Shown here: in pieces, positions 10,080 to 42,796 of the stretch
Layout: each line of letters starts with the position of its first letter
How positions within the stretch are numbered: position 1 is the stretch's first letter
Source of the DNA: Cladocopium goreaui
Taxonomy: Eukaryota; Sar; Dinophyceae; Suessiales; Symbiodiniaceae
Assembly: GCA_947184155.2 (NCBI GenBank)
Contig: CAMXCT020002046.1
Coordinates: forward strand, 124,001-188,000
Length of the DNA stretch: 64,000 nt
Direction of reading: 5' to 3'
Program-made: the position numbers and the translations under genes
The notes under the pieces: model-generated
Told to the model about the DNA's origin: nothing
The model's database searches: none
The model's input: only the letters and a program-made list of their open reading frames with translations

Positions 10080-10134
10080 GTCGGATTGCTGAGGTCGCCA
10101 CGACAACGATGACTTCGCTGTGACTACTTGGGCC

Positions 10135-10980: not shown

Positions 10981-11238
10981 CTATTTGGTCTTGATACTCC
11001 TCTTCTCGACTGCCTATAACACATCTTTCATACATCGTTTCTAAAATTGCGTCTCCATACTAACAAGAGAAGACCCTGCTCCTCTACGCTCTCGGGCCAT
11101 CCGTCGTCTAGTTCATTTACCTCATGAATTAGTGTAATTCCCGCCCATAATCGTCCACGTGTTGTAGCTTCCTCCCTAACCATGCAATGGGTCAATCAGA
11201 AGTATGTATCGCTTTCCATCTCTAAGATAGCTCAGGGT

Positions 11239-11265
11239 ACTTCTGTCCAAAGACGTGACAGGGGT
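11239..11265 (+). promoter_or_regulatory. Conserved CAAAGACGT-loop hairpin 1
   Basis: Inner stem CTGTC/GACAG (11243-11247, 11257-11261) closes the loop CAAAGACGT. Pairing continues with wobbles to nine base pairs, and AGGG/CCCT can pair outside it (11234-11237 with 11266-11269). It lies about 130 nt before the ATG at 11396. Confidence 0.85.
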
Positions 11266-11395
11266 CCCTCACATAAACATTTACAGAATTTTTGTTTGGA
11301 ATTCAACCATCTTACAGAGTTTCTCCCTCACATGAATTGCGCTAGTTGTTGGATTCGAAAGAGATTACACAATTTCAGTGATCGGGTTGCCTGCC

Positions 11396-11779
11396 ATGGC
11401 GTGCGCAACATCGGATGCATCAAGCTGTGACGAACGACTTCTACACATTAAACGTGTCATTAAGAAGTACACGGCTTGCTGTACCTTACTGGACAATTTA
11501 CAGTCCGCCCACTATCATTTGCTCAAGGCGAAGCAACAGGCCAGGGAAGTATTCTGGGTCGACATACCAATGCCAGAAAAGCTTGATGAGAACATCCAAG
11601 CGCAAGTTACTCTACTTCACATGATAGCTGACTACAAAGCTCACATCGTACGAGAAATGGAATACGCTCAAAACGAGCTGTTAGTCCCAGTGGTGTATCC
11701 CGATGGCATTGAGCTCAGTTCAAGTGTAGACGAAGAACTACATGATGTGAGAGAGAACTGCTTCCCGCGCTCACCTTAG
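11396..11779 (+). CDS. Hypothetical protein, 127 aa
   Basis: The ATG at 11396 sits in a CCATGG context shared with the 13815 gene downstream; an earlier GTG in frame is unlikely to be used. The protein looks mostly helical (IKRVIKKYTACCTLLDNLQS, then a charged middle and an acidic end). I recognise no family. It is the first ORF after hairpin 1 and begins the co-oriented cluster. There is no sign of introns, and it is followed by a 470-bp spacer. That it is a real gene is supported mainly by its place in the array. Confidence 0.5.
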   Translation: MACATSDASSCDERLLHIKRVIKKYTACCTLLDNLQSAHYHLLKAKQQAREVFWVDIPMPEKLDENIQAQVTLLHMIADYKAHIVREMEYAQNELLVPVVYPDGIELSSSVDEELHDVRENCFPRSP

Positions 11780-12058
11780 AAGGGGGCATACAAAAGATGA
11801 GAAGTGCTAGCACTATAAAAGAAGCAAGATGACGGGGTGCCTACAAGCCCCCTGTACCCAACTTGCCTGAGCCACGAGAGGCTGGCTAGTCCCAACGTGG
11901 TTAAGCCGCGCGTAGCGCAGTTTTGTTCAGCCATTGAAAAAACAAGATCACGTGTGTCTTCAGCTTGATTGGGTAGGTTATATCAAAGCTTTTCCATGCC
12001 GGCAGCTACTAGGTTTCCAATACAGGGTAACGAAGTTCACACAATTTTCCTCGCACAC

Positions 12059-12077
12059 GTAGTCTATCGGCTCAAAC
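12059..12077 (+). other. Possible spliced-leader relic (CGTAG...GGCTCAA)
   Basis: CGTAGTCTATCGGCTCAAA resembles the dinoflagellate spliced leader in its CGTAG start and GGCTCAA end, with a degraded middle. It lies ~110 nt before hairpin 2. Similar matches occur at 15391-15414, 17351-17366 and 18837-18855. Short GGCTCAA matches also occur by chance elsewhere, so confidence is low. Confidence 0.3.
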
Positions 12078-12186
12078 AGAGTTCAGACAATACAGCTTAC
12101 CTAATGATGTGCTACTTTCATTGATGCTAACAATGTTGCCTGACATCACCATAAATAGTATAGGTGATCCTTAGCTGCCAAACCAC

Positions 12187-12223
12187 GGTGCTTTTCCGAC
12201 CAAAGACGTGTCGGGACTGCACC
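12187..12223 (+). promoter_or_regulatory. Conserved CAAAGACGT-loop hairpin 2
   Basis: Inner stem TTCCGAC/GTCGGGA (12194-12200, 12210-12216) surrounds CAAAGACGT. An outer stem GGTGC/GCACC (12187-12191, 12219-12223) extends it. It ends 26 nt before the ATG at 12249. Confidence 0.88.
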
Positions 12224-12248
12224 TGGCAAGCGCTCCACTCGCGTAGCC

Positions 12249-13058
12249 ATGTCGACCGCGCTCATGACATTTCTGAGGAACTACCATTGGAAAGGTTATA
12301 ACGTTGAAACCATTCAGAGCACCCCAAATATGTTGACGAATCTACATCGCGGCAAGTACCCTATCCATAGGCTATGTCACAATGTCAACATAGAGTGCAG
12401 GGTATTTAACTTGATGGAAGTATGCACATGGCTCAACGGTGAAAAATGGAACATCCTATGGGCTGAAGATGAGTCATGGCTCCCGGAGGAGACGACAGTA
12501 ATGATGGGGGCTTCATTGCCCCACGGATTCCATAAGGTCATTCCTCGAGAGTGTGACGAGGTTTACCTGCTGGCTTGGTTGAATATCGCAGGATACGGAG
12601 GTTTCTATCCCTTTGCAGCAGAGGTGCGACACAACGGATATGCATGCTGGGCCAACTCCAGACGTTTTGCAATAGTTGCAAAGAATGCCCAACAATGTGC
12701 TATTATTGCAGAAATTATGCATGCTTACAATATACTAGGCAATCGCATTGAAACACTGCAGCCAACCCTAGAAGGAATCGCACTGAGTGAGCAATCACGA
12801 ATCAACAGTGCTGTCCATGAAGATGATCGACCGTGCTTTGATTTTCGGCTCTCGCAAGAGTGCCAAAATGCAATAGCAGGCCATTTTCCTAATCATGAAG
12901 ATGAAGCGGATAGGATCTTCCAACTCAGTGAAGGCATCCAAGTGCTGCAAATGCAACATAATGACCTTGTACAAGAAGCCAACCGAGCACTTTATCGACT
13001 ACAGCAAAATTGGTATGCTCTCAGTGAAGCGTATGCAACCATGTTCAATGACCTGTGA
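12249..13058 (+). CDS. Hypothetical protein, 269 aa; paralogue of the 15684 gene
   Basis: It starts with ATG at 12249, shortly after hairpin 2. It has no domain that I recognise. The region from LNGEKWNILW (near residue 63) to MHAYNILGNR (near 159) aligns by eye with the protein at 15684-16847: shared are NGE-WNI, an SHGFH/SHDFC-like element, the WPF/YPF-A-E block, a -RRFA(V/I) segment and the M-H-NIL-NR motif. The C-terminal third is heptad-like and probably a coiled coil (IFQLSEGIQVLQMQHNDLVQ). It is intronless and + strand like its neighbours. The function is unknown, but the shared motifs suggest a conserved fold rather than random ORFs. Confidence 0.68.
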   Translation: MSTALMTFLRNYHWKGYNVETIQSTPNMLTNLHRGKYPIHRLCHNVNIECRVFNLMEVCTWLNGEKWNILWAEDESWLPEETTVMMGASLPHGFHKVIPRECDEVYLLAWLNIAGYGGFYPFAAEVRHNGYACWANSRRFAIVAKNAQQCAIIAEIMHAYNILGNRIETLQPTLEGIALSEQSRINSAVHEDDRPCFDFRLSQECQNAIAGHFPNHEDEADRIFQLSEGIQVLQMQHNDLVQEANRALYRLQQNWYALSEAYATMFNDL

Positions 13059-13670
13059 GGCACAATGAGTTAGCAGAAGTCCAGCGAAGTTGATCGTCAG
13101 GCAATCAAAAGAGGGGTTCATTGGGCAGCTTTTCCTGTGGTGATTCTCGCACGTCTCGCAAATAACTTTTAAGGGAACTGAACCACATGCTCACCTATTA
13201 GGGGCACATTAATCCTCCTCTTGACAATGCTGGCGGTGACTGCAGTGTGAACATGCTTTCGTGTCTGCTCACAGGTACCTCATCCCACCTAAGCTGGCAT
13301 GCCGAACAAGCAATATCCCTTGCACACCTACTAGCAAGTTAGATGACATTCCTACGAAGGCGAGTGTATGTAATGTTCAAGGAAGGGCTTAGGATGACCC
13401 CCAACCCGTATTTAACTTGTCTGTACTTGCTTTCTAGTATTAATTCGTACACAATGGGTAACTCACTCAGTGTCCTAGGCTCTTCTCTAAGTCAAGGGTG
13501 TGAAGATTAGATTTGAGCGTATTTCAGTGACAACGGGATAGGAACTAAAATTAATCTTCCCCATCACACTGGCTGATGTACCCCAGCGAGACAGTCATCA
13601 TAGTGTCATAACCGACATGACCCAATATTTAACATGTCCTGACATTAAATACGGTAACCATGACGGTCAC
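13059..13670. other. Intergenic spacer, 0.6 kb
   Basis: I see no ORF or repeat of note. CCTGACATTAAATACGGTAA near 13638 vaguely echoes tgcctgacatcaccataaat near 12134 upstream of hairpin 2, which may hint at a shared upstream element. Confidence 0.35.
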
Positions 13671-13707
13671 GTTGTCTTTCCGACCAAAGACGTGTCGGGA
13701 ATGCAAC
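13671..13707 (+). promoter_or_regulatory. Conserved CAAAGACGT-loop hairpin 3
   Basis: Inner stem TTCCGAC/GTCGGGA (13678-13684, 13694-13700) surrounds CAAAGACGT, with GTTG/CAAC (13671-13674, 13704-13707) outside. It lies ~108 nt before the ATG at 13815. Confidence 0.87.
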
Positions 13708-13814
13708 TGACTGACAACAACATCCACCAAGTGCCATCCTAATGTCCCTTTCACTTTACTCGCAAGCTAGCAATCTTTATGTAGTGGGCCTCCACTCTCT
13801 CTGCCCGTACTGCC

Positions 13815-14561
13815 ATGGAGTATGTGCGACTTCGCGGAGAAGAACACCAGTTCTCTATGCCAGTAAAGATGATCCTATATAGCTTGGAAGCAGCGCAAGA
13901 ACTTATGGTGGCTGTGCGAGACCTCAGGCGCACAGTACGGCTAGTGCAGTGTGGATGTGTCACCTTTTTTCCAGAAGAAGCACATGGATTGCAATTGATA
14001 TATAACACCTTAGAAGCTGACCTTCAGCAGGTTGAATTGGACGGACAGCGCATCACACAGCATCTCTTGACAGCACTAGCAGCATCGTACGAGGACATAG
14101 TCCGAGTGGCAGGTTTTAGTCGCCCGTCTACACGAGGTTTGTGGGTCAACCACCTATACTTAGTTCCAGCTGCTGATGGAGGCATGACCGATCAGGCGGG
14201 ACTTGCTCCAGTGCCAATAGATGCCCGACCATTTCGGCTAATCATTCAGACAATACACATCACTGCGACCCTGGGCGGTTTTCTGGACCGCAGGACCATG
14301 CGGCAAGCAGCTGATACAGTAGTGGAAGTTGCTTTTCTACTATTACGGTCAGGGTTGCCACCCAACCTCCGCATCTGGACCACCATAGCAGCTGGAACCA
14401 ATTCAACAGTGCAAAGACTCCAACCAAGCACGCTCCTAGCGGATGTAGCCAGAATGATGGCTCCCGCCATAAGGTTTAATCTTCTCGTGCAGGATCCGCC
14501 CACTGCGGCCATTCGCAGTCCCGACAGAGAGTTGAGTACGCCGGAGGTCGTCCTCCTGTAA
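13815..14561 (+). CDS. Hypothetical protein, 248 aa
   Basis: ATG at 13815 is in a GCCATGG context. The product has alternating helical stretches (LEAAQELMVAVRDLRRTVRL near residue 23) and a hydrophobic C-terminal half, with no signal peptide or clear membrane span. I recognise no family and see no similarity to the paralogue pair. It follows hairpin 3 and is intronless. The next ORF begins 245 nt downstream without an intervening hairpin, so the two may share one leader. Confidence 0.55.
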   Translation: MEYVRLRGEEHQFSMPVKMILYSLEAAQELMVAVRDLRRTVRLVQCGCVTFFPEEAHGLQLIYNTLEADLQQVELDGQRITQHLLTALAASYEDIVRVAGFSRPSTRGLWVNHLYLVPAADGGMTDQAGLAPVPIDARPFRLIIQTIHITATLGGFLDRRTMRQAADTVVEVAFLLLRSGLPPNLRIWTTIAAGTNSTVQRLQPSTLLADVARMMAPAIRFNLLVQDPPTAAIRSPDRELSTPEVVLL

Positions 14562-14805
14562 CAAAAAGTGAAATGGCTGGGGATTTTAGAATTGCCGTAT
14601 CTCAGATCAGTGGAATTTGCATGATTTACGGGCCACTCATTACCTTCGCTTGCCATCGTGTGCTCAAGAGTTGCTACCTCACAACACAAATCCAACGAAT
14701 ACCACTCAGTATACATCCTTGGAGTTCATTTGATGTTTTCAAGCAATTAACGCTAGACATAGAGTCATAGCCAGACAGCGCACACTGACTTGCCATGGTG
14801 ACGAA

Positions 14806-15201
14806 ATGAAGCACTTAGATGTAGTGGATGGAGTTATCGGAGCAATATCGCTCGAAGCAAGACCTCCATCTGGAGTTATAGGGGACAACATCGAACTGCT
14901 AATTTTACACCTACGGATGCCTGATGCTGCGACTTGGATTGCACACACTGCTACACACGCAGTAATCAGACTTGAAGAACAACAAATTCAAGACTACCTC
15001 CTCATATCCAATGGACTCATGCACAGGACCCCCTGCGTTTTCTCAATCAAAGAAGAGACGGTAGACCGCCTTGATGATTTGCTGCTTGAACAGCTTTCCC
15101 GTGAAGGAATAGGCCTCACAGATTCATCTACGGTGTACATAGCCATAGCTCATGTACAGCACAGTTACACTGAACTTACTCACTGTTTAACAAGTTTTTG
15201 A
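14806..15201 (+). CDS. Hypothetical protein, 131 aa
   Basis: ATG at 14806 is preceded by a five-codon upstream ORF starting at 14795 (ATGGTGACGAAATGA), so initiation may be leaky. The product is acidic with leucine-rich helices (IELLILHLRMPDAATWIAHT) and no known motif. It is the only ORF of the cluster without its own upstream hairpin, so it may be expressed with the 13815 gene. Gene status is uncertain. Confidence 0.42.
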   Translation: MKHLDVVDGVIGAISLEARPPSGVIGDNIELLILHLRMPDAATWIAHTATHAVIRLEEQQIQDYLLISNGLMHRTPCVFSIKEETVDRLDDLLLEQLSREGIGLTDSSTVYIAIAHVQHSYTELTHCLTSF

Positions 15202-15390
15202 TGAATCAACCGGCTCGAAGCAGGGGCTATGCCTATCATACTCAGGTGCGATATCGCCAATTAGGAAATTCTGGCAAAAAGAGAGTTGTAGTTTCCGTCA
15301 CGACAGAGAGCATGATCAGCAGCTGTACTCATGAGTACACGTGCCCACCTTGGTCAAGTTCTACAGATTGAGATCCGTCAGCAGTTTTGT

Positions 15391-15414
15391 ATACCCTGTC
15401 GCATCTCTGTGGCT
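15391..15414 (+). other. Possible spliced-leader relic upstream of hairpin 4
   Basis: The segment ends in TGGCTCAAA and has a loosely matching 5' half (CC-GT-GC-AT). It lies only 20 nt before hairpin 4. This is a weak match on its own. Confidence 0.25.
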
Positions 15415-15434
15415 CAAACCACCTTCCCATGTAC

Positions 15435-15479
15435 AGGGCTCCCACTCCTCTGACTAAAGACGTGTCAGGGGAGTACCCT
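15435..15479 (+). promoter_or_regulatory. Conserved hairpin 4 (loop TAAAGACGT)
   Basis: An 11-bp stem ACTCCTCTGAC/GTCAGGGGAGT (15444-15454, 15464-15474) with one wobble closes the loop TAAAGACGT. AGGG/CCCT pair outside (15435-15438 with 15476-15479). The first loop base is T instead of C. It precedes the ATG at 15684 by ~205 nt. Confidence 0.88.
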
Positions 15480-15683
15480 TTCTCTATTTTACCTTCCCTC
15501 TTTTTTGCCTTCTTCTTCTTCCCCTCTCTTTGGCTGTCTCCTTTTGTTACCTCTGCTGCTTTCCGTGACTGTTGGCACTCTCTGGTCCATCCCTATCCGT
15601 CATTTGTGACTGCTTCCTCTGTTCTCCCTTCCTGCTCTCTGTCCCTACTTCTGCCATACCTTTGTGTACTCCGGTGGGCAGTC

Positions 15684-16847
15684 ATGGCGCACTGGATCGG
15701 TGATAAGGTCACGCTGAAGGCAGGCCCACTGACTGGGCCTGACCAAGAGGGCCCAGCTGGAGGCAATAATGATACTGAGGCTCACAGTGAACACCAGCGA
15801 CCTGAGTACAAAGAGTCCTACATTACGGAATACGATGGCATCCAGGTCTATCGGCAGCAGGGCTGTTATGAGCACGCCAAGCAGCTCCATGCGTGGTCTT
15901 TCTATGAATATAGAATGTGCATCAATGGAGAATGCTGGAATATTATCCTCAATGACGACATGAAGAGCCCGCCGGACTGGGCCTATCCAGGGTCCAGCTC
16001 CGCCAAATTGTCGCATGATTTCTGCCACGTAGATACGGAGGCCAGTGATGACGTCTATACCAACTTCTGGTTTGTGGAAATGGGAGGCCGACAGATATGG
16101 CCTTTCTATGCCACAGAGTCCTTTCAGGAAGACCTATGGATTTGGGTGAGCCCCAGAAGATTTGCTGTCATCACGAACCACCAACACAATGAGAAATTGA
16201 ATCATTTCTATGTTGACAGAATGCATGAACATAATATCCTGGCAAATCGCACACCGTGCTGGCCCTTCACTGAAATGACCAATAGCTCAGGCAAGGTGAC
16301 GGACAAAACTATAGCCCTGAACAGAGAATCCCGCTGTAGTTCAGCAGGTCACGAAACTTTCAAGACTGGCTTTGAACACAAGAGTGCCATGAAGCTTATG
16401 CCGCGAAGAGAAGAGAACCTTCATGGCAAGAGAAAGTACTCTGACCCCTCGGGACAAACAAGTACTCAACAGTTTGACCCGTCCGGGAATTACAGTGCAC
16501 GTGATCTGCAGAAACTCAATGCGACCTTCGCTGATCAGTCTGAGGTTAAATCAGCTGCAATGCCAACCCATACAACCAGCAAAGTCACAATGTGGCGGCA
16601 TGGGGAGGTACCGCCACTAGGACCTGCAGCAGAAGGCCGGGCCCGGGCTGCTAAACAGCTGGCTTATGCACGCACTCTCTTAACTGTTGTCATGGAGGCA
16701 GCCACTCAAATGGAAGAAGTTGTGAGCAATTTAGTGCAGATCGAGCACGAACAAGCCACGGCTAAAGAGGAAGATTTGGTGCAAGCTGCTTCAGCTGCTC
16801 CGACTGAATCTTGCACAGATCCAGCTACAGAGGGAAGTCAAAACTGA
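15684..16847 (+). CDS. Hypothetical protein, 387 aa; paralogue of the 12249 gene
   Basis: The frame is open from 15387, but the upstream part is a T/C-rich leader. The ATG at 15684 starts a protein-like sequence and is my chosen start. Residues ~70-200 match the 12249 protein: INGECWNII, LSHDFCHV, DDVY, WPFYA, RRFAVI and MHEHNILANR. The rest differs: an added N-terminal acidic segment, a polar middle (KRKYSDPSGQ) and a C-terminal helix rich in A, E and Q (VMEAATQMEEVVSNLVQIEH) that could be a coiled coil. It is intronless. The paralogue relation is read directly from the two translations; the function is unknown. Confidence 0.68.
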   Translation: MAHWIGDKVTLKAGPLTGPDQEGPAGGNNDTEAHSEHQRPEYKESYITEYDGIQVYRQQGCYEHAKQLHAWSFYEYRMCINGECWNIILNDDMKSPPDWAYPGSSSAKLSHDFCHVDTEASDDVYTNFWFVEMGGRQIWPFYATESFQEDLWIWVSPRRFAVITNHQHNEKLNHFYVDRMHEHNILANRTPCWPFTEMTNSSGKVTDKTIALNRESRCSSAGHETFKTGFEHKSAMKLMPRREENLHGKRKYSDPSGQTSTQQFDPSGNYSARDLQKLNATFADQSEVKSAAMPTHTTSKVTMWRHGEVPPLGPAAEGRARAAKQLAYARTLLTVVMEAATQMEEVVSNLVQIEHEQATAKEEDLVQAASAAPTESCTDPATEGSQN

Positions 16848-17469
16848 GTGGCGCTTGATTTTGACATCTGCATGCTGTATAAAGTCCGAAGGAACCGCAG
16901 CGAAGACTGTGGCCCCCCCTCACCTCGAGGATGCAGGACGTGAAAAGATGGTAATTGCACTAGATGGTCTGCCTGTTGATAGATCAGTAAAAGTCGATTA
17001 GAGTGCAACAGCTAAGAATGCATGTAAAACTTTGTTTGCGGTATTTTTCCATTGCACTCATGCAGGAGGTGTCTTTGGTGAGCATGAGGCCTTTTGCCAC
17101 GCTGCTTGATAGAGGGCCTGCAATTTTTTGTTTGCTCAAATAAAAGCACCGGATTTCTGATCATCACCAACGTTTCCTGATACAAGACAAGTCTCATACT
17201 AACTAGATTGCCGGACCTTTTAGGCCTATGTTGTCACAGGCAGGCTGTACAGCGCGCGCCTGTAGCATCTGACTGGCTGTTATGTATAAACTGTGTTGTC
17301 TTGCATGTCAATGAGACCATGTAGTAATGTTTCCCTTTTTGACCTGCACAGCAATTCTGGCTCAACTATAGAGGGTCTGACTACTTGTTGACCTTTTATA
17401 CTTCTAGTATACCCCTCAGTATCCTTCCTAGCCCTTACATATACGAGTATTGTGGTTGCAGTCATAAGT
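16848..17469. other. Intergenic spacer with one spliced-leader-like match
   Basis: There is no gene. GCAATTCTGGCTCAAC at 17351-17366 matches the 3' 16 nt of the dinoflagellate spliced leader at 13 of 16 positions by my count, the best of the four such sites. Confidence 0.4.
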
Positions 17470-17510
17470 GCGAGGCCTCTCTGGCTAAAGACTGTCAGGG
17501 TTGCCTCCGC
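17470..17510 (+). promoter_or_regulatory. Conserved hairpin 5 (loop TAAAGACT)
   Basis: Inner stem CTGGC/GTCAG (17481-17485, 17494-17498) contains one G-U pair and a shortened loop TAAAGACT. An outer stem pairs GCGAGGC (17470-17476) with GCCTCCGC (17503-17510) with a bulge. It ends 20 nt before the ATG at 17530. Confidence 0.85.
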
Positions 17511-17529
17511 TCCTTTTTACGGGGCAAGT

Positions 17530-18648
17530 ATGCGACTCCGTGTGCGCCATGGGATCCTTGGCGAAACTGCCCTGACGATGGACGTCTTGGAACGGACAAC
17601 TCTCGGATGGGATATTATGAAACAGACGGCGATGGTGCTTAGGTTGGATTCACCCTTCCAAGTGGTCCTCTACGCAGACAGCTCGTCAGTAATCCAGTCG
17701 CCACTGAGGGCTGTTCAACTTGACACTGATGCAAATGAGGCAACCTTATGCTATATAGTGCAATCATTGCAAGTCCCATCAGCACAGCAATATCAAGACC
17801 TTATGACAGCCATTTATCACAAAGACGTGATGGATGTAAGCTATCTTCTTGGCAAGGGCTTAGGCCTTATGGACGTGACGACGGAGGGAGGGCATACCAG
17901 CACATTAGTAGCCTCTGCTATTCTTCGAGACCATTCTGCTGATCCGTATGCTTACCAGCCTACAGCTGTCCACTGCTTCCCTCGACATGGGGCCAGTTTA
18001 ACTTATCTACTGCTACAAGCCCAAGCTGACCCCAATATTATCCCGCCCAAAATGCAACCTACCACCATGTTGGAATTAGCAGTTGAGTTGGGCAGCTCAC
18101 AGCTTGTTCAAACTTTGCTTGAGGCTGGTGCCTCGGTGATACCCGTAAAAGGAGCGCTACCACCCCTCTTCCTTGCTGTCCTCCATCGGCACAGGACAAA
18201 TGTACAGCTGCTCCTAGACGCACAAGCGGACCCGTGGCAGGAGATTCTGATTGCCTCCGTGCTTTGCCATTCACTGCAATGGCACGGTCACCCTGCCCGA
18301 AAAGAAGTCTTCAGCGCTGTACAAGCTGCTGCTGCGCAGAGTGCTGAAGACACGGTCATTGATATGCTACAGCAATTCCGTAGCGCAACAGACGTGTTTA
18401 GAAGTGAGCAATCTTCTCTGGCGCGAGTGAAGCCCACAGCTCTGACAGATAGGGCCACCACGATCATGAATCAAACTGTTTGGAAATACCAACATATCAT
18501 TGAGAAACAGTCTCGACAGACAAACTTTGCTACGTTCCGTTGGCGCAGAATACTCGAAGGACTGTATTTACCAGTACGAATACGAAATGAGCTGCAATCA
18601 CCCCCGGAGCTCAACCGGGAAGAAACATTCCTGCACCAAGTCGACTAA
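17530..18648 (+). CDS. Ankyrin-repeat protein, 372 aa
   Basis: I start it at ATG 17530, just after hairpin 5; the frame is open further upstream but that part contains the hairpin. Ankyrin-type repeats are visible: LELAVELGSSQLVQTLLEAGA near residue 180 and PLFLAVLHRHRTNVQLLLDA near 212. Weaker units lie before them (LTYLLLQAQADP near 158; MTAIYHKDVMDVSYLL near 92). The N-terminal 80 and C-terminal 120 residues have no known motif. Ankyrin repeats are protein-binding scaffolds, so the likely role is binding a partner, possibly another product of this cluster. It is intronless and co-oriented. Confidence 0.72.
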   Translation: MRLRVRHGILGETALTMDVLERTTLGWDIMKQTAMVLRLDSPFQVVLYADSSSVIQSPLRAVQLDTDANEATLCYIVQSLQVPSAQQYQDLMTAIYHKDVMDVSYLLGKGLGLMDVTTEGGHTSTLVASAILRDHSADPYAYQPTAVHCFPRHGASLTYLLLQAQADPNIIPPKMQPTTMLELAVELGSSQLVQTLLEAGASVIPVKGALPPLFLAVLHRHRTNVQLLLDAQADPWQEILIASVLCHSLQWHGHPARKEVFSAVQAAAAQSAEDTVIDMLQQFRSATDVFRSEQSSLARVKPTALTDRATTIMNQTVWKYQHIIEKQSRQTNFATFRWRRILEGLYLPVRIRNELQSPPELNREETFLHQVD

Positions 18649-18836
18649 TTGTGTGCTCCAGATGAACACTTTCCCAGTGAGAGGCTGGCACCAGGTCAAG
18701 GCTGAATTCCGGCCTGCTTGTGATCCTAGAGAAAAACGAAAGAGCAGCACACACTCAGTCACATCTCTCATTTGAACCATGATGTCCTTAATTACGCAAG
18801 CATTGTGTGCTCTGCTACATGTAGCTACCGCTCCCT

Positions 18837-18855
18837 GCGATCCATTGGCTCAAAT
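18837..18855 (+). other. Possible spliced-leader relic
   Basis: GCGATCCATTGGCTCAAAT resembles the spliced leader with CCATT and GGCTCAA intact and two T residues missing between. It lies ~250 nt before hairpin 6. Confidence 0.3.
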
Positions 18856-19104
18856 GCAAAGCAGTAGACAGACCTGCTGCCTCAGCTTAGTTCCAGAAAG
18901 GGGAAATATATAGTGCCTCCTAACCTCGGTGAGGGATTCATATCACAAACCTTTCCGGTTATTGGGCGAAGGGTATTGCTACAGGCTTGTTTTGTCACAC
19001 TACAGATTACATCCTGATCGTTCGTGCACTGGGACCTTATTCCACGATAGTGCCCCTTGCTGCGTTACCTCCTTTTACCTGACTCCTTGTTCTCCTTTCC
19101 ATTT

Positions 19105-19150
19105 GGCTTCTGGTTTTTCTGGCCAAAGACGTGCCAGGGCTACCAGCGCC
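19105..19150 (+). promoter_or_regulatory. Conserved CAAAGACGT-loop hairpin 6
   Basis: Inner stem CTGGC/GCCAG (19119-19123, 19133-19137) is fully Watson-Crick, with the A-U of other copies replaced by G-C. The outer stems CTGG/CCAG (19110-19113, 19143-19146) and GGC/GCC also pair. It is the first of four hairpins ahead of the giant helicase gene. Confidence 0.87.
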
Positions 19151-19265
19151 TCTTCCACCACCCCTCTCTCTTTTAAGGCTCTTTCTTTTCCTCATTTGTT
19201 CTTTGGCTCGTCCTCGTGCTCTGCTCCCTCCCTTTCCCTCTCTTTTCTCCTTTTTCACTCTAGTG

Positions 19266-19302
19266 CCTGGATTTTCTGACTAAAGACTGTCAGGGCTTCC
19301 AG
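19266..19302 (+). promoter_or_regulatory. Conserved hairpin 7 (loop TAAAGACT)
   Basis: Inner stem CTGAC/GTCAG (19276-19280, 19289-19293) closes the loop TAAAGACT. The outer stem is CTGG/CCAG (19267-19270, 19299-19302). It lies directly after a polypyrimidine tract ending in TTTTTCACTCTAG. Confidence 0.85.
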
Positions 19303-19431
19303 CTTCTATTATCCCTTTCCTTCCCCCCCTGATTGCACCTAACTCCCTCACTGCCTTGTGCGCCGCCTCAGTTGTGCTGCCGTGTCTCAATTTTTGGGTT
19401 CGGGAGTTTTTGTTTCCTCTTGTTTCCTGTT

Positions 19432-19480
19432 AAGGTGCTTGAACTGCCTGGCCAAAGACGTGTCAGGTTTTTCAACACTT
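19432..19480 (+). promoter_or_regulatory. Conserved CAAAGACGT-loop hairpin 8
   Basis: Inner stem CCTGGC/GTCAGG (19447-19452, 19462-19467) has one G-U pair. The outer stem TTGAA/TTCAA (19439-19443, 19471-19475) continues with GTG/CAC. It follows the T-rich sequence TTTCCTGTTAAG. Confidence 0.87.
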
Positions 19481-19620
19481 GCCCCCTTCCCCCCCTTTTT
19501 TGTTTGTTTGTGTCTTTGGTTTTTGTTGCTTTTTGGTCTTTCCTGGTTGCTTTCTGTTTTGGTGGTCTTGCTTTGGGTTTCCCTTCTTTTCGTTGACTTT
19601 GCTTTTCGATACTGACTGGA

Positions 19621-19664
19621 GTGCTTGAGTCTTCTGACCAAAGACGTGTCAGGATTCTCAACAC
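19621..19664 (+). promoter_or_regulatory. Conserved CAAAGACGT-loop hairpin 9
   Basis: Inner stem TTCTGAC/GTCAGGA (19632-19638, 19648-19654); outer stem TTGAG/CTCAA (19625-19629, 19657-19661) plus GTG/CAC (19621-19623, 19662-19664). The outer stem changed on both sides relative to hairpin 8 (A-T to G-C). It is 65 nt before the ATG at 19729. Confidence 0.9.
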
Positions 19665-19728
19665 CTCCCCTCCCTCCCCCTGTATTACCTTTACACCCAG
19701 ATCAGCTACACAGGAACTGCACAGTGTG

Positions 19729-22700
19729 ATGTCTCTGCTTTCCAGGGAACAAGTTGTGAAGTCCTGGTACGCAAAGAACCCTACCATCAGCTTCTTTGAC
19801 TTGCTCTATGCACTTGAACAGCACAAGAGCATTTCGACTGAGTACGGGCTGAATGTATCCATTGAGCAGCACTGGCGATTTGGAGACCCCCATAAGAAGA
19901 CAGCTGCACCCGATCGATATGACTACGAAATTGCAATGGTAAACGGGAGAGAAACCTTACCTGGACCTGACTGGCACAAGTTGTACCGATGGTTGGTTAG
20001 TCAAAGCTCTGCTTTCTTGCCTTACCACACGGTATATTTGGTGACGGACAATCGTGATTTGCAATCGGACAAGGTCAAGTCTGTGCCTGGACTCAGTCAT
20101 TGGCCAATGGTCGCTGCTTGGTGGAAAGAACGGTTACGCTATGTCGGCCCATATGGAGAACTCACCACAGTTGTCTTTGTCCACATTTCAGCTGACACTG
20201 GTCTTCATAAGGTACACCCGACATGGGCAGGGACGTACATCCTTGATGCTTGCGTGTTCCTCTTTCCGGCCATCAACTTTGCACTGATTGACAGCGATTG
20301 TGTGCCAGTGACCCTCTTTGAGATACGGGAACTTTGGCTAGCGAGCACTGACCCAACCCGCCCAGCTACATCAAGCACAGTTGCAAAGAGCAAACTGTCA
20401 AGCCCCATTGCGTCATCGCACAAACGTGCGCGATCTGTGGACACGGGAAGGGACATGCAGCAGCCTGGTCCACCATCGAAGCTATCTAGATCGCATAGTG
20501 CGGACCATCTTGCTGTCCGAAAAGCTGATCCACTACGAGCCCCTCCGCTCACCTACGGTGCCAACTTGGCAGACGAAGTTGACTATGGTGATTCGCCAGA
20601 CCCGAGTCCCCGCATGTCTCGTCGGGCGACGTCCAGCAGCGATGACTCTTCCCCGGCTGGGTCAACCAAACCTACTCGGAAGGACAAAGCAGCCGTGGAT
20701 GAAACTGCCACTGCGCGTAGGCCCAAAGGAGTCATCCTTGTGAGTGAGGCTTTCACTGAAATCAATGCGGGTCTGGTCATTGTATTAGCTTCGGGTCATG
20801 AGAGTCCTGTACCTGTCACTGCCTTGGAGGACTCAGACACAGATCCTGATGAAATAGCCCACGTTATTACCAGTGCTTACCACAGACATGTCGAAGCCTA
20901 CCTTGCGACTACATATCCACCTGCAGACGTTGAGCAAGCAGTCGCTAGTGGATTACTTGGCTCTCCTCTGCTTGGCACGTCCACTCGTGTTACTGCAGAT
21001 TGGTGCCATGCGTGGAGTTTGTTAGGCCAGTGGTCTGGATTAGTCACTTTTCCTGTCCCAGCCTCTGGAGTCTGGCCGCGCCATGGTCATTTACGGAAGA
21101 TCCTTGATGGCTACCAAGGCAGACAGCCGAACTTCCATAAATGGGCTAGGCCTGCCTACGAGCAAGGGGCCCTTCCGACCCTTAGCCTGCTGCCCGGTGA
21201 GGTCAGTGTACGAGTGCTACCAGGAGACAAGATGTACCAGGCCATGGCAATCGAGCCACATTACATGCGGCCTGTTATTCTGCATGGGTTTGGCACCAGT
21301 GCCAAGAAAAGAATGCCTAGCAGTCTCGCTGACCTCGCCCAATTCGGCTGGTTGCCGCTGGCTGCGGCTTTATTTGGCACACAAGAATGGAAGCCCCAAT
21401 GGCTACATCACAATTTCCTTCCAGTGGTTGGTCTGCGACTGCATGCCAAAGTGCCTCCTCCTCCTCTCTCCCAAGCTCAACTAATTTTGCTGTGTGGATT
21501 GTGGCAACGAAAGGAACAATCGGAACCCTCATGTACGTCGCTGCAGCAAGCAGCTCACCTGAAGTTTGGTCTTCCGTTACCTTTCAGAGAGATGGCTAAG
21601 TGGGAAGTCACTGTCAATGAGCAGGCCATAGATGTTGGAGAAGTGTCCAAACAAAACTACATTGGAAGACAACCTGAAGCTGCGCTGCCCGTAGCACTCA
21701 AGGGCTCTGCCGAGTGGGCATCCTGGGTCTTTTCCCTCTTAGAAGTCTGGCAAGATGACGCCCCAATGCAAGACCGACCCCTTGAAGTGCATTGCAGTGG
21801 ATTAGGGGGTGGCCTACTTAGTGGCGAACACGACTATGATATTTTCCTGCAAAATCTTGCGCAAACAAAGGTGTATGGCCCATCGCTTGCGATGACAGAT
21901 AATTGGGAAGAACATGTCACCCAATTGGGCCTCACCAAAACAGTGCACGAATATGCGGTATACCAGCTCCTCTCCACTGCCGATGGATGGACAGCTTGGC
22001 GAGATTTCCTCCCTGAACAGTTCTCCGATCAACAGCTGCTGCTCACGAGAGCGATTCGCCTCATTGAGGCCGCGAATATCCGGCCAGCCCATGCCAGGCC
22101 ACCACACCCGACCTGGTCAACAGCAATTATGCAGATCTTCCGTTGCTACCATCCGCAAGGTAAACAGCTTTTTCTGAAGTCATGTTTTCCACACTTAGTC
22201 ACTACAGCGGATACAGGAGGTGTCAGGGACATCAACGTGTATGGTTTCTCGGCAGGGTCCTATACGGGCCTAGCAGTCCACGAGATCCTGAGTGAATTTG
22301 CTGCGTTCCCTGGCCTCACTAAAGTTGCTGCGATTGCGACGCCGCCAGAGATGATGCGACTTGCCACAGGCGAACGCAGAGTCACACTGGTGCACTGCCT
22401 GGAGGACCGGCTATGTGTGTGGAAACCTGCTTCTCTGACAGAATTTAATTATCAGGTTGTTCTTATAGAAGGGCACCCCACATGGAGTGGGCGTGCCAAA
22501 CACTCCTATGGCCACTTGCTCTTCATTGACCTTGATGAAGGAGTCCATGAAGTTCAGAGATTACAAATCACCAGCCCACAAGTCATTCCACATGGGGTAC
22601 GGTGCGAGGGATTGCTGCGTGTACTCTCATGGGTTAGCTTTGACCTTCCTGAGCACCTCAAGACGACTCTAAGTGCTCTGTTAGTAGCAGCTGGAGAAGG

Positions 22701-24888
22701 GAACACTGAGCTACAAACAGTACCCATTGTCGGACGGGACATTCGGGATGGTCAGCCTGATACGGAAGCTGAACTACAAGCAGTTCTGATTGCGATGATT
22801 CCCACACCGGGAGGATCCCACGATGAGGGTGGGTTGCTGGTTCGCAACTTACTGGCGGAATTCCTGCGTGGTTTTTCATTACGAACCCTCATCTTCCTAC
22901 TGGACATGGTACTTCCGCAACTAGACGCTTATCATGCGGGACGGCAGCTCCAACATCTTCAGCCCTGGGTCAGTGTAGAACTAGCTCAGCAGAAGAAGCG
23001 AGGACAAACTGGAACACGGTTGCAGGTCACCTACCAATATGAGGCGTATGCTGGTTTTCATGTCATTCACCTACATACTGATGGTGCCCCGCTCCTGCTC
23101 TTTAGTGCACCGTCGGATGTTCCAACGACCTCGCCACGGGAACTCTGTGAAGCTGGGAATCTAGGCAACTTGGAAGCCAACGTGATGGCGGGCAGAGCGC
23201 TACTGGGGGTTCTCCAGTTGCCAGACACTCAGCAGAGGTGTGTCATATTACTGGTACATGAAAAGGTGATGCCTAGTGGAACCAGTAAGAACCCTGCTCA
23301 GCGAGCGATCAAGCGCATTGCCCCGAAGTTGCTGGAGCTTGTTATCGTCTCGCTACCCATTGCTCGGACCTTTTGTGGGCGACTCTTGGACCAGTATCTC
23401 AAAACAATGAGTTACTTTGATCCTGCACAGGACTGGCCGAAACCCATCGAAGACCACGTGTCCATGGCCGTAGTGTGGGAGGAGCTAGCCTTTCTGGGAG
23501 ACACACGCAGCCGCCATGAACTATTAGTGTTTGCACAAGCTAACCAGTCGCGCCTACCATTGGCAATGTGCATCGTGCAGCCGCATATACCTGTTCGCCG
23601 CATGGCCAGCGAGCGCAAAACGCAGCTGACTGATGCATTAGTCAGAATTTTGAGCCGGTTTTTGACACCAGCCACGATATCGATGGATGGGGCCCATGAC
23701 AGTTACTACCGTGAGTATCTCCTTCCTCTAGCAGCCCACGGTGATGGACATGTCTTGACAGTTTCAATTGCATTGTTACTGGCCATTCTGACAGGAAGAT
23801 CTGACTTATGTATTGCAGGGGTCTTTGGTGCTGGCAAAACGCGGTCCCTTGCGGTCTTGCTCATTGCCCTGAGCTGCGAACTCAAGGACTTTGTTGCAAT
23901 CATCTATACGAAAGAAAATGTAGCTGCCAAAGCACTTGCGGATCAATTAAGTGATCTCGCGCCCCCCACAATCAGGAGCTTCGGTAGGCTAATTGGTCGC
24001 ATGGAGGAAGGCAAAGGAGAAGCATATGCCTCCAAAATTGACGTCCGATGCAGTGACCGTAATAGAATCATCGCTCACAAGAATGTACTCATTGCAACAG
24101 GTGGCTCGGCCACGGCGGAAATGGCGATGCGCTATTCCAGTTTTGGCCATTGGATCTCTCGCACCTGGCTTGCTTTCATGGACGAAAGTCAACAGTATGG
24201 CAATTACCATGAGATTGCAGCTCTCGCTGCCATTCAACAACCAACCCTTACTGTTTTCATTGGCGATCACAGGCAAACTCCAGGAGGACTGTCAAAAGGC
24301 CGAGCAGCGGCTGTCAATCGTCGCAAACTGTTGCAACGGCCGTTAGGGCTCCGAGCGCTTGATAAGCCAGGAGACTATCTTCCGCCGGCACGAATGGCAG
24401 CACTTGTAGCTCAGCTTTGGCCTGATGCGAGCCAAGATCCGGAGTCTGATCTCTTCAATCTGCTGAGACTTGCAAATAAGTCGCATAGTGGCCCATGGAC
24501 ATCCACTCCGCAAGACTACGAGCTGCCTGTCGCCCTGGGGCGTGTGTTTCACTGCCGAATATCGTGCCAGCTGGATGCACACAGCAGCCTAATTGCAGCA
24601 GCTCTAGCAGTCCTATTGATTGCCACAGCACCAGAGGAATTTGGAGTACCTGAGTGCACCACAACCCTTGAAGCAGCCGGGTTATGTGGTCCTCACCGGT
24701 GGGGTATCATTCTCCCTAACAGCTCACGGGTCTCAATGCTGACCTACCAAGCTATCGTTGCAGTTCGATATCCTGAGTTAGTCCTCCATAGCCCAATCAC
24801 ATCTACATTGGACACTTCGTGCCACATGAGTCCACTGTGGCACAAGGAGGTTTCCGGACAGTGCTGTGGAATGCACCTAAAGATCTAA
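19729..24888 (+). CDS. Giant protein, part 1: alpha/beta-hydrolase-like and SF1 helicase N-terminal half
   Basis: I start it at ATG 19729 after hairpin 9 (1,719 aa). Residues 1-230 contain LIDSDCVPVTLFEI, loosely like a DxD glycosyltransferase segment (weak). Residues ~230-330 are Ser/Asp-rich linker. Near 840 lies a nucleophile elbow GFSAGS (Ser ~841), followed by an acid in HCLEDRLCVW (Asp ~893) and a histidine in YGHLLF (His ~929): a plausible Ser-Asp-His hydrolase triad. A superfamily-1 helicase starts with Walker A GVFGAGKT (Lys ~1370), Walker B FMDESQQ (Asp ~1485) and GDHRQTPGG (~1512). The frame ends at 24888 while helicase motifs continue in the -1 frame. It could be a polyprotein or one multidomain enzyme. 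Intronless over 5 kb, unusual for a dinoflagellate gene. Confidence 0.75.
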   Translation: MSLLSREQVVKSWYAKNPTISFFDLLYALEQHKSISTEYGLNVSIEQHWRFGDPHKKTAAPDRYDYEIAMVNGRETLPGPDWHKLYRWLVSQSSAFLPYHTVYLVTDNRDLQSDKVKSVPGLSHWPMVAAWWKERLRYVGPYGELTTVVFVHISADTGLHKVHPTWAGTYILDACVFLFPAINFALIDSDCVPVTLFEIRELWLASTDPTRPATSSTVAKSKLSSPIASSHKRARSVDTGRDMQQPGPPSKLSRSHSADHLAVRKADPLRAPPLTYGANLADEVDYGDSPDPSPRMSRRATSSSDDSSPAGSTKPTRKDKAAVDETATARRPKGVILVSEAFTEINAGLVIVLASGHESPVPVTALEDSDTDPDEIAHVITSAYHRHVEAYLATTYPPADVEQAVASGLLGSPLLGTSTRVTADWCHAWSLLGQWSGLVTFPVPASGVWPRHGHLRKILDGYQGRQPNFHKWARPAYEQGALPTLSLLPGEVSVRVLPGDKMYQAMAIEPHYMRPVILHGFGTSAKKRMPSSLADLAQFGWLPLAAALFGTQEWKPQWLHHNFLPVVGLRLHAKVPPPPLSQAQLILLCGLWQRKEQSEPSCTSLQQAAHLKFGLPLPFREMAKWEVTVNEQAIDVGEVSKQNYIGRQPEAALPVALKGSAEWASWVFSLLEVWQDDAPMQDRPLEVHCSGLGGGLLSGEHDYDIFLQNLAQTKVYGPSLAMTDNWEEHVTQLGLTKTVHEYAVYQLLSTADGWTAWRDFLPEQFSDQQLLLTRAIRLIEAANIRPAHARPPHPTWSTAIMQIFRCYHPQGKQLFLKSCFPHLVTTADTGGVRDINVYGFSAGSYTGLAVHEILSEFAAFPGLTKVAAIATPPEMMRLATGERRVTLVHCLEDRLCVWKPASLTEFNYQVVLIEGHPTWSGRAKHSYGHLLFIDLDEGVHEVQRLQITSPQVIPHGVRCEGLLRVLSWVSFDLPEHLKTTLSALLVAAGEGNTELQTVPIVGRDIRDGQPDTEAELQAVLIAMIPTPGGSHDEGGLLVRNLLAEFLRGFSLRTLIFLLDMVLPQLDAYHAGRQLQHLQPWVSVELAQQKKRGQTGTRLQVTYQYEAYAGFHVIHLHTDGAPLLLFSAPSDVPTTSPRELCEAGNLGNLEANVMAGRALLGVLQLPDTQQRCVILLVHEKVMPSGTSKNPAQRAIKRIAPKLLELVIVSLPIARTFCGRLLDQYLKTMSYFDPAQDWPKPIEDHVSMAVVWEELAFLGDTRSRHELLVFAQANQSRLPLAMCIVQPHIPVRRMASERKTQLTDALVRILSRFLTPATISMDGAHDSYYREYLLPLAAHGDGHVLTVSIALLLAILTGRSDLCIAGVFGAGKTRSLAVLLIALSCELKDFVAIIYTKENVAAKALADQLSDLAPPTIRSFGRLIGRMEEGKGEAYASKIDVRCSDRNRIIAHKNVLIATGGSATAEMAMRYSSFGHWISRTWLAFMDESQQYGNYHEIAALAAIQQPTLTVFIGDHRQTPGGLSKGRAAAVNRRKLLQRPLGLRALDKPGDYLPPARMAALVAQLWPDASQDPESDLFNLLRLANKSHSGPWTSTPQDYELPVALGRVFHCRISCQLDAHSSLIAAALAVLLIATAPEEFGVPECTTTLEAAGLCGPHRWGIILPNSSRVSMLTYQAIVAVRYPELVLHSPITSTLDTSCHMSPLWHKEVSGQCCGMHLKI

Positions 24889-27302
24889 GAGCTGCTGTTG
24901 AGGATGTGGTGGCCTTCTGCACCTACCTGAAGAACTATTATCGCAATTTGCAACAAGGAGCAACCTCGCAGCTGCTTGTCTTATGCAACCGTACGGCGGT
25001 GCACAACTTGCTACTCCAACATGGCTTCCAGTCCGCGTGGTATGGCGGGCTGAGAGTTTCCACCACCTCCTCTGCTGCAGGGGCGACAGCGCGCATTGCG
25101 GTCATTGTTCAAACAGGTGTCGGGTTTCTAAGTGGAGGACGTAGGGATGCAACAGCAGACGAGCGTGAGGACTGCTATGGAATAGCAACTGTAGCGCTCA
25201 CAAGAGCCATTGAACATACCTATATTGTCTCGCCTCTCGATATGGCAGGCATGATTGGCATGGCTCAGACAATAGGAGTGTACCATTATGGCTACTTCAC
25301 GCTGAAAGGCCGAGACATTCAGTACCATGGCCCTACAACCTACCCCAGCGACAAAAGCGCCATACTGGACTGGGGATTAGAGGCACCATTTATTCCCCAA
25401 GATAAACCCCCCCTTGCTATTGCCATGGTAGTGACCACCAATGGCACACGAGCGTGGCGACGCTATCGGCTGGTTGTGGCATGCAGAGACAAGCTTCGTC
25501 TTCCCCCTGATGTCCTTGCAGCACTAGAGTCCCGCACGCGTGACCATGTGCTGACGACCAGCGGGTTTTTCCCCTGCTCGATTGATCGTGAATACTTGTA
25601 TGGTTATGCTGCTGATGGGTACAGATGTCCTCTCTGGCTGTGTGCAGCCTATAATGGGTCCCCAGCACTTGTTCATCGACATAGAGGCCACAAGGTCTTC
25701 TTTCACGTGGGTATACAGGATCGACAACTCGTCGTAATACCGGGTATCCACTACTTCGATGCCCATCGGTTGCACCCGGACCTCTTGGCCACATTGGATC
25801 GCCAGTTTGATCCAGGGTCCATGAAACTTGCAAGCCCCGAGGGTGCAGGAGACACAGTGAATGACCCCTCCTCGGATGAGGAAGCAGCCTCTACCGATGA
25901 CGAGAGTGATCCAGAAGACCCTACAGTTGCGTGGTGCCCACCCATACCTGATGCAGCTGAGGATCCCTCTGAAGACGAGATCGTGAGTGCAGCTGACCAG
26001 CTAGCAATCCTGATTGCTAATGTCCAACCTAACGGAAACCCTTTTTGCATACCCGAAAACCTTGGGATTCTCCCGCCGCTGTGGCTACAGGCGAGATTGA
26101 CGTTGTCTTTGACTGCCATCCAAGAAAAGTTTGCGCGCATCTTGCTGAGTGTGGCCTGTGAACTGTGGTTGCGCGGGCAAATTGCCAGTGTGGAGGATGT
26201 CCTCCTGCAGACGGCAAGGGCTCTCACAATTCGATTGGCAGAGAAGCTTGCCCAGGCGATGAGCACGTTGATGAGATTAGCTGAGTCCATGGTGACTCCA
26301 GAAACTGAATGCCTGTTGTATGCCACGTACTGGTTTCGGCCCATCCTGTCTGAACTCATTGGCTCGGCCCGAGAGAGCTCTGAGATGAACCGGAGTCGAG
26401 CGCCGAGTGGCCCAGTAAAAGTCCTGGTCACAGATCGGCCGCATCGACGCACTACTGGGCTAGTGGACCTTACGAGTGGTGCCTCTGCCCTATTGGCATG
26501 GTTCCCGGCTAGCTGGGCCAGCAAAATTGCTCCCAAACTTCTCGAGAATGCTCCTGAGAATGCGCAGAAACCACAAGAAATTAACATCGCGTGCCCGAAA
26601 CGTTCCTGTGACGAGACTCCAGTGGAGGGAGCAAAGCAGCTGCTCCAAGCAGTGAAATTTGCTGCCAAAACCATGCCTGGTTTTCGCCTTGGATTGGATG
26701 AAGACTTTCAAATGGCTGGATGTTTCCAGGAGCTCATCCATGGATACACCTCAGGGCTCGTTGAACCATACATGATGCGAGGTCTCCAACCACTGGGACC
26801 GAATCGCACTACTCTGGAAGTGATCATACCCTCTCAAGAAGGGCTTACACCTGAAAAGTGGAAAGAAACAGCCACACTGTGCCCACTTGATTGGCCTTCC
26901 AACTACAGTCTTTTGCGATTGTGGCATACCAATGGGAGCCTTCATCAAACGGAAGCGCGACTCAGGACTCAACTGTCGCACAGCCATATGTTTGCTGAGT
27001 GGACAGTGCATCTCCACAGATTTGCAGAGCGTGTTTTATTCCAGCAACCTGCAGTTTATGTAGCGGGACATGCCTTACAAGCCAATCTGCGGGAACGAAA
27101 CTTCCCAGACAGGAAAGTCCGCAGGAGGGTTCCTCCGGAAGATTTGGACGAACATCAAAGGGCGATCCGAGCGCTTCATCAGCGAGCTATTGCTCAGCAA
27201 GGAGTGAACCCAGTTTCGTTTGTGCTCACCAACGAATGTAACGACACCATTACATCAGATAAAAAGCATTATTTGGAACATTTCACGAGAGGTACGACAT
27301 GA
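24792..27302 (+). CDS. Giant protein, part 2: SF1 helicase C-terminal half and unknown tail
   Basis: The frame opens at 24792, in the -1 phase relative to part 1, with a 97-nt overlap. It has no ATG of its own near the start. It begins with a probable motif V (ESTVAQGGFRTVLW) and has motif VI VALTRAIEHTYIV (Arg codon at 25203), which completes the helicase of part 1. After that follow ~670 residues without known motifs, including an acidic linker (SSDEEAASTDDESDPEDP) and a basic C-terminus. I see no canonical slippery heptamer in the overlap, so this may be a one-base indel, a sequencing error or an unconventional frameshift. No hairpin lies between the two parts, which supports a single gene. 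Confidence 0.72.
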   Translation, partial: PNHIYIGHFVPHESTVAQGGFRTVLWNAPKDLRAAVEDVVAFCTYLKNYYRNLQQGATSQLLVLCNRTAVHNLLLQHGFQSAWYGGLRVSTTSSAAGATARIAVIVQTGVGFLSGGRRDATADEREDCYGIATVALTRAIEHTYIVSPLDMAGMIGMAQTIGVYHYGYFTLKGRDIQYHGPTTYPSDKSAILDWGLEAPFIPQDKPPLAIAMVVTTNGTRAWRRYRLVVACRDKLRLPPDVLAALESRTRDHVLTTSGFFPCSIDREYLYGYAADGYRCPLWLCAAYNGSPALVHRHRGHKVFFHVGIQDRQLVVIPGIHYFDAHRLHPDLLATLDRQFDPGSMKLASPEGAGDTVNDPSSDEEAASTDDESDPEDPTVAWCPPIPDAAEDPSEDEIVSAADQLAILIANVQPNGNPFCIPENLGILPPLWLQARLTLSLTAIQEKFARILLSVACELWLRGQIASVEDVLLQTARALTIRLAEKLAQAMSTLMRLAESMVTPETECLLYATYWFRPILSELIGSARESSEMNRSRAPSGPVKVLVTDRPHRRTTGLVDLTSGASALLAWFPASWASKIAPKLLENAPENAQKPQEINIACPKRSCDETPVEGAKQLLQAVKFAAKTMPGFRLGLDEDFQMAGCFQELIHGYTSGLVEPYMMRGLQPLGPNRTTLEVIIPSQEGLTPEKWKETATLCPLDWPSNYSLLRLWHTNGSLHQTEARLRTQLSHSHMFAEWTVHLHRFAERVLFQQPAVYVAGHALQANLRERNFPDRKVRRRVPPEDLDEHQRAIRALHQRAIAQQGVNPVSFVLTNECNDTITSDKKHYLEHFTRGTT

Positions 27303-27507
27303 TCCCCCGCTCACCCCTGTTCGCATCACTTATACCATTTATGTGTCCACCCCTTCTCTCCCTTCCCCCTGTGTCTCATTTCTGTTTCACTCCGCATTGT
27401 CCCTCACACAATATTTGGCTTTTGTTTCATCAATCACGGAAGTGGGAGTTAACTTCAATCTCTATTTGGTCTTTCGTCACTTCTACTTAAGGTTACTGCC
27501 CATGCTG

Positions 27508-27538
27508 GTGTGTCTGTCCAAAGACGTGACAGGTGCAC
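27508..27538 (+). promoter_or_regulatory. Conserved CAAAGACGT-loop hairpin 10 (orphan)
   Basis: Stem GTGTGTCTGTC/GACAGGTGCAC (27508-27518, 27528-27538), 11 bp with three wobbles, surrounds CAAAGACGT. Only short ORFs follow, so it either heads a lost or spliced gene or marks the end of the cluster. Confidence 0.83.
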
Positions 27539-27539
27539 T

Positions 27540-42665: not shown

Positions 42666-42796
42666 CTTGTGCGGTGCAAAACGCCTGGTACTAGCTGCGT
42701 GAGATCTGCATGAGTGTTGCATGGGACGTGTGTTGGGGAGGATGCCGGAGCGCGAAGTATTGTGTTTCGATGTGTTTCGGATACGACGCGTCAACA

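Follow-up and report, generated by a model that had tools for sequence, protein, structure and literature searches.

Several kinds of hairpin are known that stand next to genes and are read by a protein. The iron-responsive element is the leader hairpin of a regulon and has a six-base CAGUGN loop and a bulged C five pairs below this loop. TAR and the coat-protein hairpins of phages are protein-bound hairpins in viral leaders and are present in few copies per genome. In phage N4, DNA hairpins with three-base loops serve as promoters for a phage RNA polymerase, while the attC sites of integrons are imperfect hairpins between genes that have conserved ends and an integrase gene nearby. Here, we analyzed a stretch of 64,000 nucleotides from the dinoflagellate Cladocopium goreaui (GCA_947184155.2, contig CAMXCT020002046.1, positions 124,001 to 188,000; the window in the following), in which ten hairpins with a nearly fixed loop are interspersed with seven open reading frames (ORFs A to G). 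We give about an even chance to the reading that this hairpin is a cis-acting regulatory RNA element located in or just upstream of the 5' leaders of these genes and bound by one trans-acting factor.

The ten hairpins (h1 to h10, Table 1) all lie on the plus strand, at the places given in a first-pass annotation of the window. Direct reading also reproduced the counts given there, both for the loop, which is CAAAGACGT in seven hairpins, TAAAGACGT in one and TAAAGACT in two, and for the inner stem, where CTGTC/GACAG and CCGAC/GTCGG each occur twice, CTGAC/GTCAG three times, CTGGC/GCCAG once and CTGGC/GTCAG twice. An AAAGAC loop on a stem with at least six of seven possible pairs was encountered eleven times on the plus strand and once on the minus strand of the window (26900-26921, six pairs); in 60 first-order Markov resamplings the same pattern appeared on the plus strand 0.45 times on average and twice at most. 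Ten of the eleven plus-strand matches are the hairpins themselves. The eleventh, at 17813-17834 inside ORF F, has the loop CAAAGACG and seven pairs. The earlier statement that the window contains no further copy is therefore nearly but not strictly true: the loop core recurs, but the covariance model described below gives this look-alike only 8.3 bits (E 5.3), and its occurrence in a coding region is possibly due to chance. When eight intergenic stretches were compared all against all by BLAST, the 50 best matches that linked different places were due to the hairpins, with the exception of several short runs (12-14 nt).

For structural analysis the ten copies were aligned over 49 columns, using a structure that was first named from single folds. 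The common fold turned out to be larger than described in the first-pass annotation. Below the 7-bp upper helix it continues with a 2x2 internal loop, a 5-bp lower helix, a bulged base on the 5' side (C in seven of the ten hairpins) and a short outer helix of three to four pairs. One fixed place in the upper helix is taken by a U-G pair in nine hairpins, and in six the internal loop is free of pairing at its two positions. Pairing is realized in 91.3% of the 150 cells of the common structure, and 11 of its 15 pairs have changed on both sides. The covariation score amounted to 0.689, compared to 0.225 (sd 0.040) in shuffled alignments and at most 0.201 in six slid versions of the structure. RNAalifold arrived at the same fold without being given a structure and reported 16 pairs, 12 of which showed two-sided change in one or more of the copies. 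The claim that compensatory change reveals selection on structure is thus well supported.

The covariance model built from all ten copies recovered exactly these ten in the window at E <= 4e-12, with the next match at E 0.3, a specificity that is partly given by construction. A second model (R2) was built from five copies only, h2, h3, h5, h7 and h8. It found all five held-out copies, with E values of 3.5e-14 (h9), 7.6e-13 (h6), 5.2e-7, 5.1e-6 and 2.8e-4 (h10) and bit scores of 55.1 for h9, 50.7 for h6, 31.6 for h1, 28.3 for h4 and 22.6 for h10, and nothing beyond them when the window was scanned up to E=1. Copies h4 and h10 were matched over the upper hairpin only, in the case of h10 over model positions 14-36. 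As a control, the core pattern was sought in two large collections, where it matched 21 viral stretches and at least 118 prokaryote stretches (80 of them listed); each of the 101 listed viral and prokaryote stretches contains a single match, and these matches were taken as chance. On 139 control loci the ten-copy model reached at most 31.6 bits, compared to 44.8 to 59.6 bits for its own ten copies. The five-copy model reached at most 34.4 bits on the same loci, a value exceeded by the held-out h6 and h9. When the translated hairpin was sought in 146 database proteins, the sole match was the window's own protein.

Folding energies bear on the question whether the structure acts as RNA or as DNA. 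Relative to shuffled sequences, the z scores ranged from -2.54 to -4.48 for the sense RNA, from -0.69 to -2.28 for DNA of the same strand and from -0.27 to -3.69 for the antisense RNA. The sense RNA was more stable than the antisense RNA in all ten hairpins, by -4.83 kcal/mol on average; the mean sense-antisense difference of 2000 random 49-mers from the cluster was +0.50 (sd 3.35), and 54.5% of 354 strong folds in the window favored the plus strand. Because the preferred strand is the coding strand of the genes, this points to an RNA that is transcribed together with them, although it is no proof of transcription.

The first-pass annotation had left RNA and single-stranded DNA side by side. 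A single-stranded DNA site, be it a hairpin promoter, a replication or packaging site or the folded recombination site of a mobile element, would go along with a structure that is repeated on one strand and with a fixed loop, which could be a protein site in DNA. Moreover, h1 and h10 have an identical core of 21 nt, and the copies retain, when folded as DNA, some advantage over the average of their shuffled versions. That advantage is weak, however, as seen from the z scores given above, while the U-G pair kept across the copies and the many G-U pairs of h10 agree with RNA, and the cluster ORFs, scanned with Pfam at E <= 0.01, yielded no recombinase, transposase, integrase or RNA polymerase. 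A function as single-stranded DNA is improbable in our judgment, and the cassette recombination site proposed earlier is disfavored by the preference for the sense strand and by this U-G pair, both of which point to RNA. Also disfavored, and hardly to be reckoned with, is a palindrome in duplex DNA that is bound by a transcription factor or whose arms are kept alike by copying. The inverted-repeat form near gene starts would agree with it, but no site in duplex DNA can demand a U-G pair at a set position, the internal loop is wholly unpaired in most copies, the fixed loop is asymmetric and has the same orientation in all ten, stability is strand-biased, and copying of the arms would yield perfect palindromes.

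Table 1. Positions of the ten hairpins and of the seven open reading frames of the cluster in the window.
Feature	Positions	Strand	Location or product	Remarks	Hairpin end to ATG (nt)
Hairpin h1	11228..11276	+	before ORF A	lower helix out of common register	119
Hairpin h2	12181..12229	+	before ORF B		19
Hairpin h3	13665..13713	+	before ORF C		101
Hairpin h4	15435..15483	+	before ORF E	internal loop paired, lower helix out of common register	200
Hairpin h5	17466..17513	+	before ORF F	8-nt loop	16
Hairpin h6	19104..19152	+	first of four before ORF G		
Hairpin h7	19261..19308	+	second of four before ORF G	8-nt loop	
Hairpin h8	19433..19481	+	third of four before ORF G		
Hairpin h9	19619..19667	+	fourth of four before ORF G		61
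Hairpin h10	27499..27547	+	after ORF G	no evident ORF downstream; G-U rich	
ORF A	11396..11779	+		no assigned family	
ORF B	12249..13058	+	269 aa	distant paralogue of ORF E	
ORF C	13815..14561	+	248 aa		
ORF D	14806..15201	+	131 aa	no hairpin before	
ORF E	15684..16847	+	387 aa		
ORF F	17530..18648	+	372 aa	ankyrin repeats (Ank_2, E 2.3e-8)	
ORF G	19729..27302	+	two frames overlapping at 24819-24888	weak helicase-type match below cut-off	

The hairpins lie between the ORFs, and for six of the seven ORFs (A, B, C, E, F and G) the nearest one ends 16-200 nt before the ATG. Since hairpins between giant-virus genes are known as 3' end or termination signals, the element could instead end the transcript of the gene upstream of it. 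Its intergenic position on the sense strand would suit such a role, as would h10, which follows ORF G at a distance of 196 nt with no evident ORF downstream. By their coordinates, however, the hairpins begin 196-618 nt behind the upstream stop codon, as against 16-200 nt between hairpin and following ATG; in addition, h1 has no cluster ORF before it, no hairpin separates C and D, and the four serial copies before ORF G would be hard to account for. A role in 3' end formation therefore appears doubtful to us, at a low probability. The proposal of a shared control element near the 5' ends of genes, already made in the first-pass annotation, remains the best-fitting reading.

As a special case of an RNA element, the hairpin might mark the place of trans-splicing: situated in the outron and followed by a pyrimidine-rich stretch with an AG directly ahead of the start codon, it would indicate where a leader is to be joined. 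The content of C+T was 0.65 over the 100 nt downstream of the ten hairpins and 0.53 to 0.90 over the first 60 nt, compared to a window mean of 0.49. Before ORFs B, E and F, the sole AG between hairpin and ATG sits 3-4 nt ahead of the ATG, leaving 196 nt free of AG in the case of ORF E, and the pyrimidine stretch upstream of ORF G ends in CAG. On the other hand, C+T is equally high upstream of the hairpins (0.64), the stretch before B and F measures just 16-19 nt, AG was likewise absent before E in 12% of shuffles, and several AGs precede ORFs A, C and G. The dinoflagellate spliced leader had no match in the window. Taken together, we regard a splice-site signal as rather unlikely. A relict spliced leader was considered separately and rejected: the heptamer GGCTCAA occurs between genes of the cluster at 12069, 15411, 17359 and 18847, and its flanks do not match the leader.

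If the hairpin indeed is a regulatory RNA element, it would be transcribed on the sense strand, just upstream of or inside the leaders at the 5' ends of one element's genes. A single trans-acting factor, in all likelihood an RNA-binding protein encoded by this element or by its host, would read it by contacting the fixed loop CAAAGACGU, presented on a stem of fixed shape but free sequence in which the U-G pair, the internal loop and the 5' bulged C recur. Through this common binding the genes could form a regulon with joint processing or translation, and the four copies before the largest gene, ORF G, may raise the dose of binding at this place.

A number of observations weigh against this regulatory reading. 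While fold, covariation, strand preference and position between ORFs have been demonstrated for the hairpin, its transcription, its location in mature leaders, the factor and an effect on expression are inferred. The idea that the hairpins mark the genes of the cluster held for six ORFs but fails at ORF D, which has no hairpin upstream, and at h10, which has no evident ORF after it. No RNA-binding domain was detected at E <= 0.01 in the ten ORFs scanned. The evidence from covariation comes from ten paralogous copies of common ancestry at one locus. A sense-antisense difference as large as the mean of the hairpins is found in 23% of strong background folds, and the strand argument therefore lies in the agreement of all ten copies and not in the size of single differences. 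Finally, three copies, h1, h4 and h10, depart from the others. Three to four of their 15 pairs are unpaired in the common register, because the helix of each continues through the internal loop, and their scores under the five-copy model do not exceed the best that core-pattern matches from the two large collections attained (34.4 and 28.8 bits). The comparison with the 139 loci is a harsh control, since these were chosen from whole collections for carrying the core. With h6 and h9 above and h1, h4 and h10 below the control maximum, the full bulged form is hence well supported for seven copies, while h1, h4 and h10 are tied to the family by their loop, upper helix, orientation, nearness and own stable folds.

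The seven ORFs of the cluster are all encoded on the plus strand and, together, probably form a eukaryotic multi-gene element of mobile or viral origin. The products of B and E are distant paralogues (28% identity over 173 aa, E 2e-13). Apart from the ankyrin repeats of ORF F, Pfam yielded a weak AAA_19 match for ORF G (E 0.0007, 20.2 bits with a cut-off of 25.1) and a still weaker, likewise sub-threshold match to Gene66 for ORF C (E 0.0089); the other cluster ORFs had none at E <= 0.01. Relatives in protein databases are numerous. ORF E is matched by 72 protein clusters, 28 of which have 385-393 aa, ORF C by 40, with exactly 248 aa in 18, and the helicase region of ORF G by 32, a count for which scoring was limited to the 7993 candidates with the most words in common. 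These recurring lengths among the relatives of E and C suggest selection on intact proteins. Some of the matching clusters represent hundreds of records at 90% identity, and such counts fit a multicopy element, although repeated deposits could inflate them. One relative of E (P0045) and one of C (P0144) come from contigs of the same size (535833). The relative P0003 continues in one frame where ORF G of the window has two overlapping frames, and the copy in the window may therefore be broken or contain a sequence error.

Searches directed at ORF G gave no match among PDB sequences, and the predicted structure of its middle part (pLDDT 68) had none at E <= 0.001 in PDB or among viral models. 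Within 21538-23520 the protein contains a GFSAGS stretch, without a significant fold match, that resembles the nucleophile motif of alpha/beta-hydrolases. The predicted structure of ORF E was not used (mean pLDDT 41.8). No relatives of G were confirmed in prokaryote contigs, with P0006 as query, or found in phage records, with the first ORF of G as query.

The organization of the cluster also invites comparison with RNA viruses. In the remnant of an RNA virus or of another replicon with an RNA genome, the hairpin would mark the start of each subgenomic RNA or serve in packaging the genome. A row of ORFs on one strand, most of them with a hairpin close to the start, would be expected there, and the very large last gene has a helicase-like domain, with a single weak match to Viral_helicase1 in the relative P0003 (E 0.014, below cut-off). 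An RNA polymerase domain, however, was found neither in the window ORFs scanned nor in five relatives of G, and relatives of B, E, G and C were not confirmed in viral contigs. We therefore judge an origin from an RNA virus highly improbable. Endogenous dinoRNAV elements are reported to contain ORFs for RNA polymerase and capsid and sometimes a relict spliced leader (PMC10235124). Domains of this type were absent from our Pfam scan at E <= 0.01, as was a spliced-leader match from the window, with no direct comparison to dinoRNAV sequences having been made. For Polintons, Polinton-like viruses and Mavericks, the Pfam scan of the cluster ORFs produced no protein-primed DNA polymerase, integrase or jelly-roll capsid, where remote capsids could escape and the ends of the element are not delimited.

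A bolder version of the regulatory reading assigns the hairpin to an unclassified class of eukaryotic mobile elements or viruses with several genes and nearly all-orphan proteins, in which it would signal start or processing and expression would be achieved via one RNA structure and one element-encoded reader. We consider this unlikely. If the regulatory reading itself is confirmed, a new structured RNA family would have been found from one locus, situated before genes for orphan proteins whose family has many relatives in databases. The finding would help to understand how an element of this kind turns on its genes jointly, and the covariance model would become a probe for locating further elements in other genomes and for defining their limits.

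Outside the cluster, an ORF of 1117 aa at 866-4219 had no match in Pfam or among PDB sequences. Two pairs of direct repeats of 300 nt, each reported as 100% identical, lie at 4210-4509 and 4962-5261 (starts 752 nt apart) and at 55832-56131 and 63228-63527 (starts 7396 nt apart); both pairs are perhaps long terminal repeats. Tandem arrays with a period of 16 nt occupy 10107-10943 and 42336-42703, one with a period of 41 nt is found at 61984-62388, and a short telomere-like run of CCCTAAA-type repeats at 30237-30280. The segment 29671-29899 matches part of P0098 (47% and 73% identity), a relative of E that covers only 22% of the query, and is perhaps a repeat common to such loci.

Known RNA families did not account for the hairpin. 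Rfam 15 had no match in the window at the gathering threshold, and with E values of up to 10 over 11000-28000 only two below the gathering score, neither on a hairpin. Among the open-licence papers listed, judged by title and the start of the abstract, none describes this hairpin. As to integron attC sites, both are repeated, imperfect intergenic hairpins in which shape is kept more than letters. Here, in contrast, the loop is fixed where attC keeps its ends, and the better-folding strand is the sense RNA; the absence of an integrase from the cluster ORFs in Pfam and outer helix sequences that differ in most copies led us to reject this assignment. The hairpin promoters of phage N4 similarly precede each of several genes. 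The structure described here folds better as sense RNA, its loop has 8-9 bases, and no RNA polymerase was matched by the cluster ORFs, and an N4-type promoter was likewise rejected. With TAR and the phage coat-protein hairpins it has in common a bulged stem, a fixed loop and the expectation of a single binding protein, whereas its ten copies at one locus, four of them serially before one gene, set it apart. Membership in the iron-responsive elements was rejected on the basis of the loop as read directly and of the Rfam scan: the loop is CAAAGACGU (9 or 8 nt) instead of CAGUGN, and an extra 7-bp helix and an internal loop are placed above the five pairs. Nevertheless, in both cases a short hairpin with a fixed loop and free helix sequence occurs near the 5' ends of several genes and has, at a distance of five pairs beneath the next loop, a bulged C on the 5' side. 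By analogy, then, the hairpin of C. goreaui would work most like the leader hairpins common to a regulon, of which the iron-responsive element is an example.

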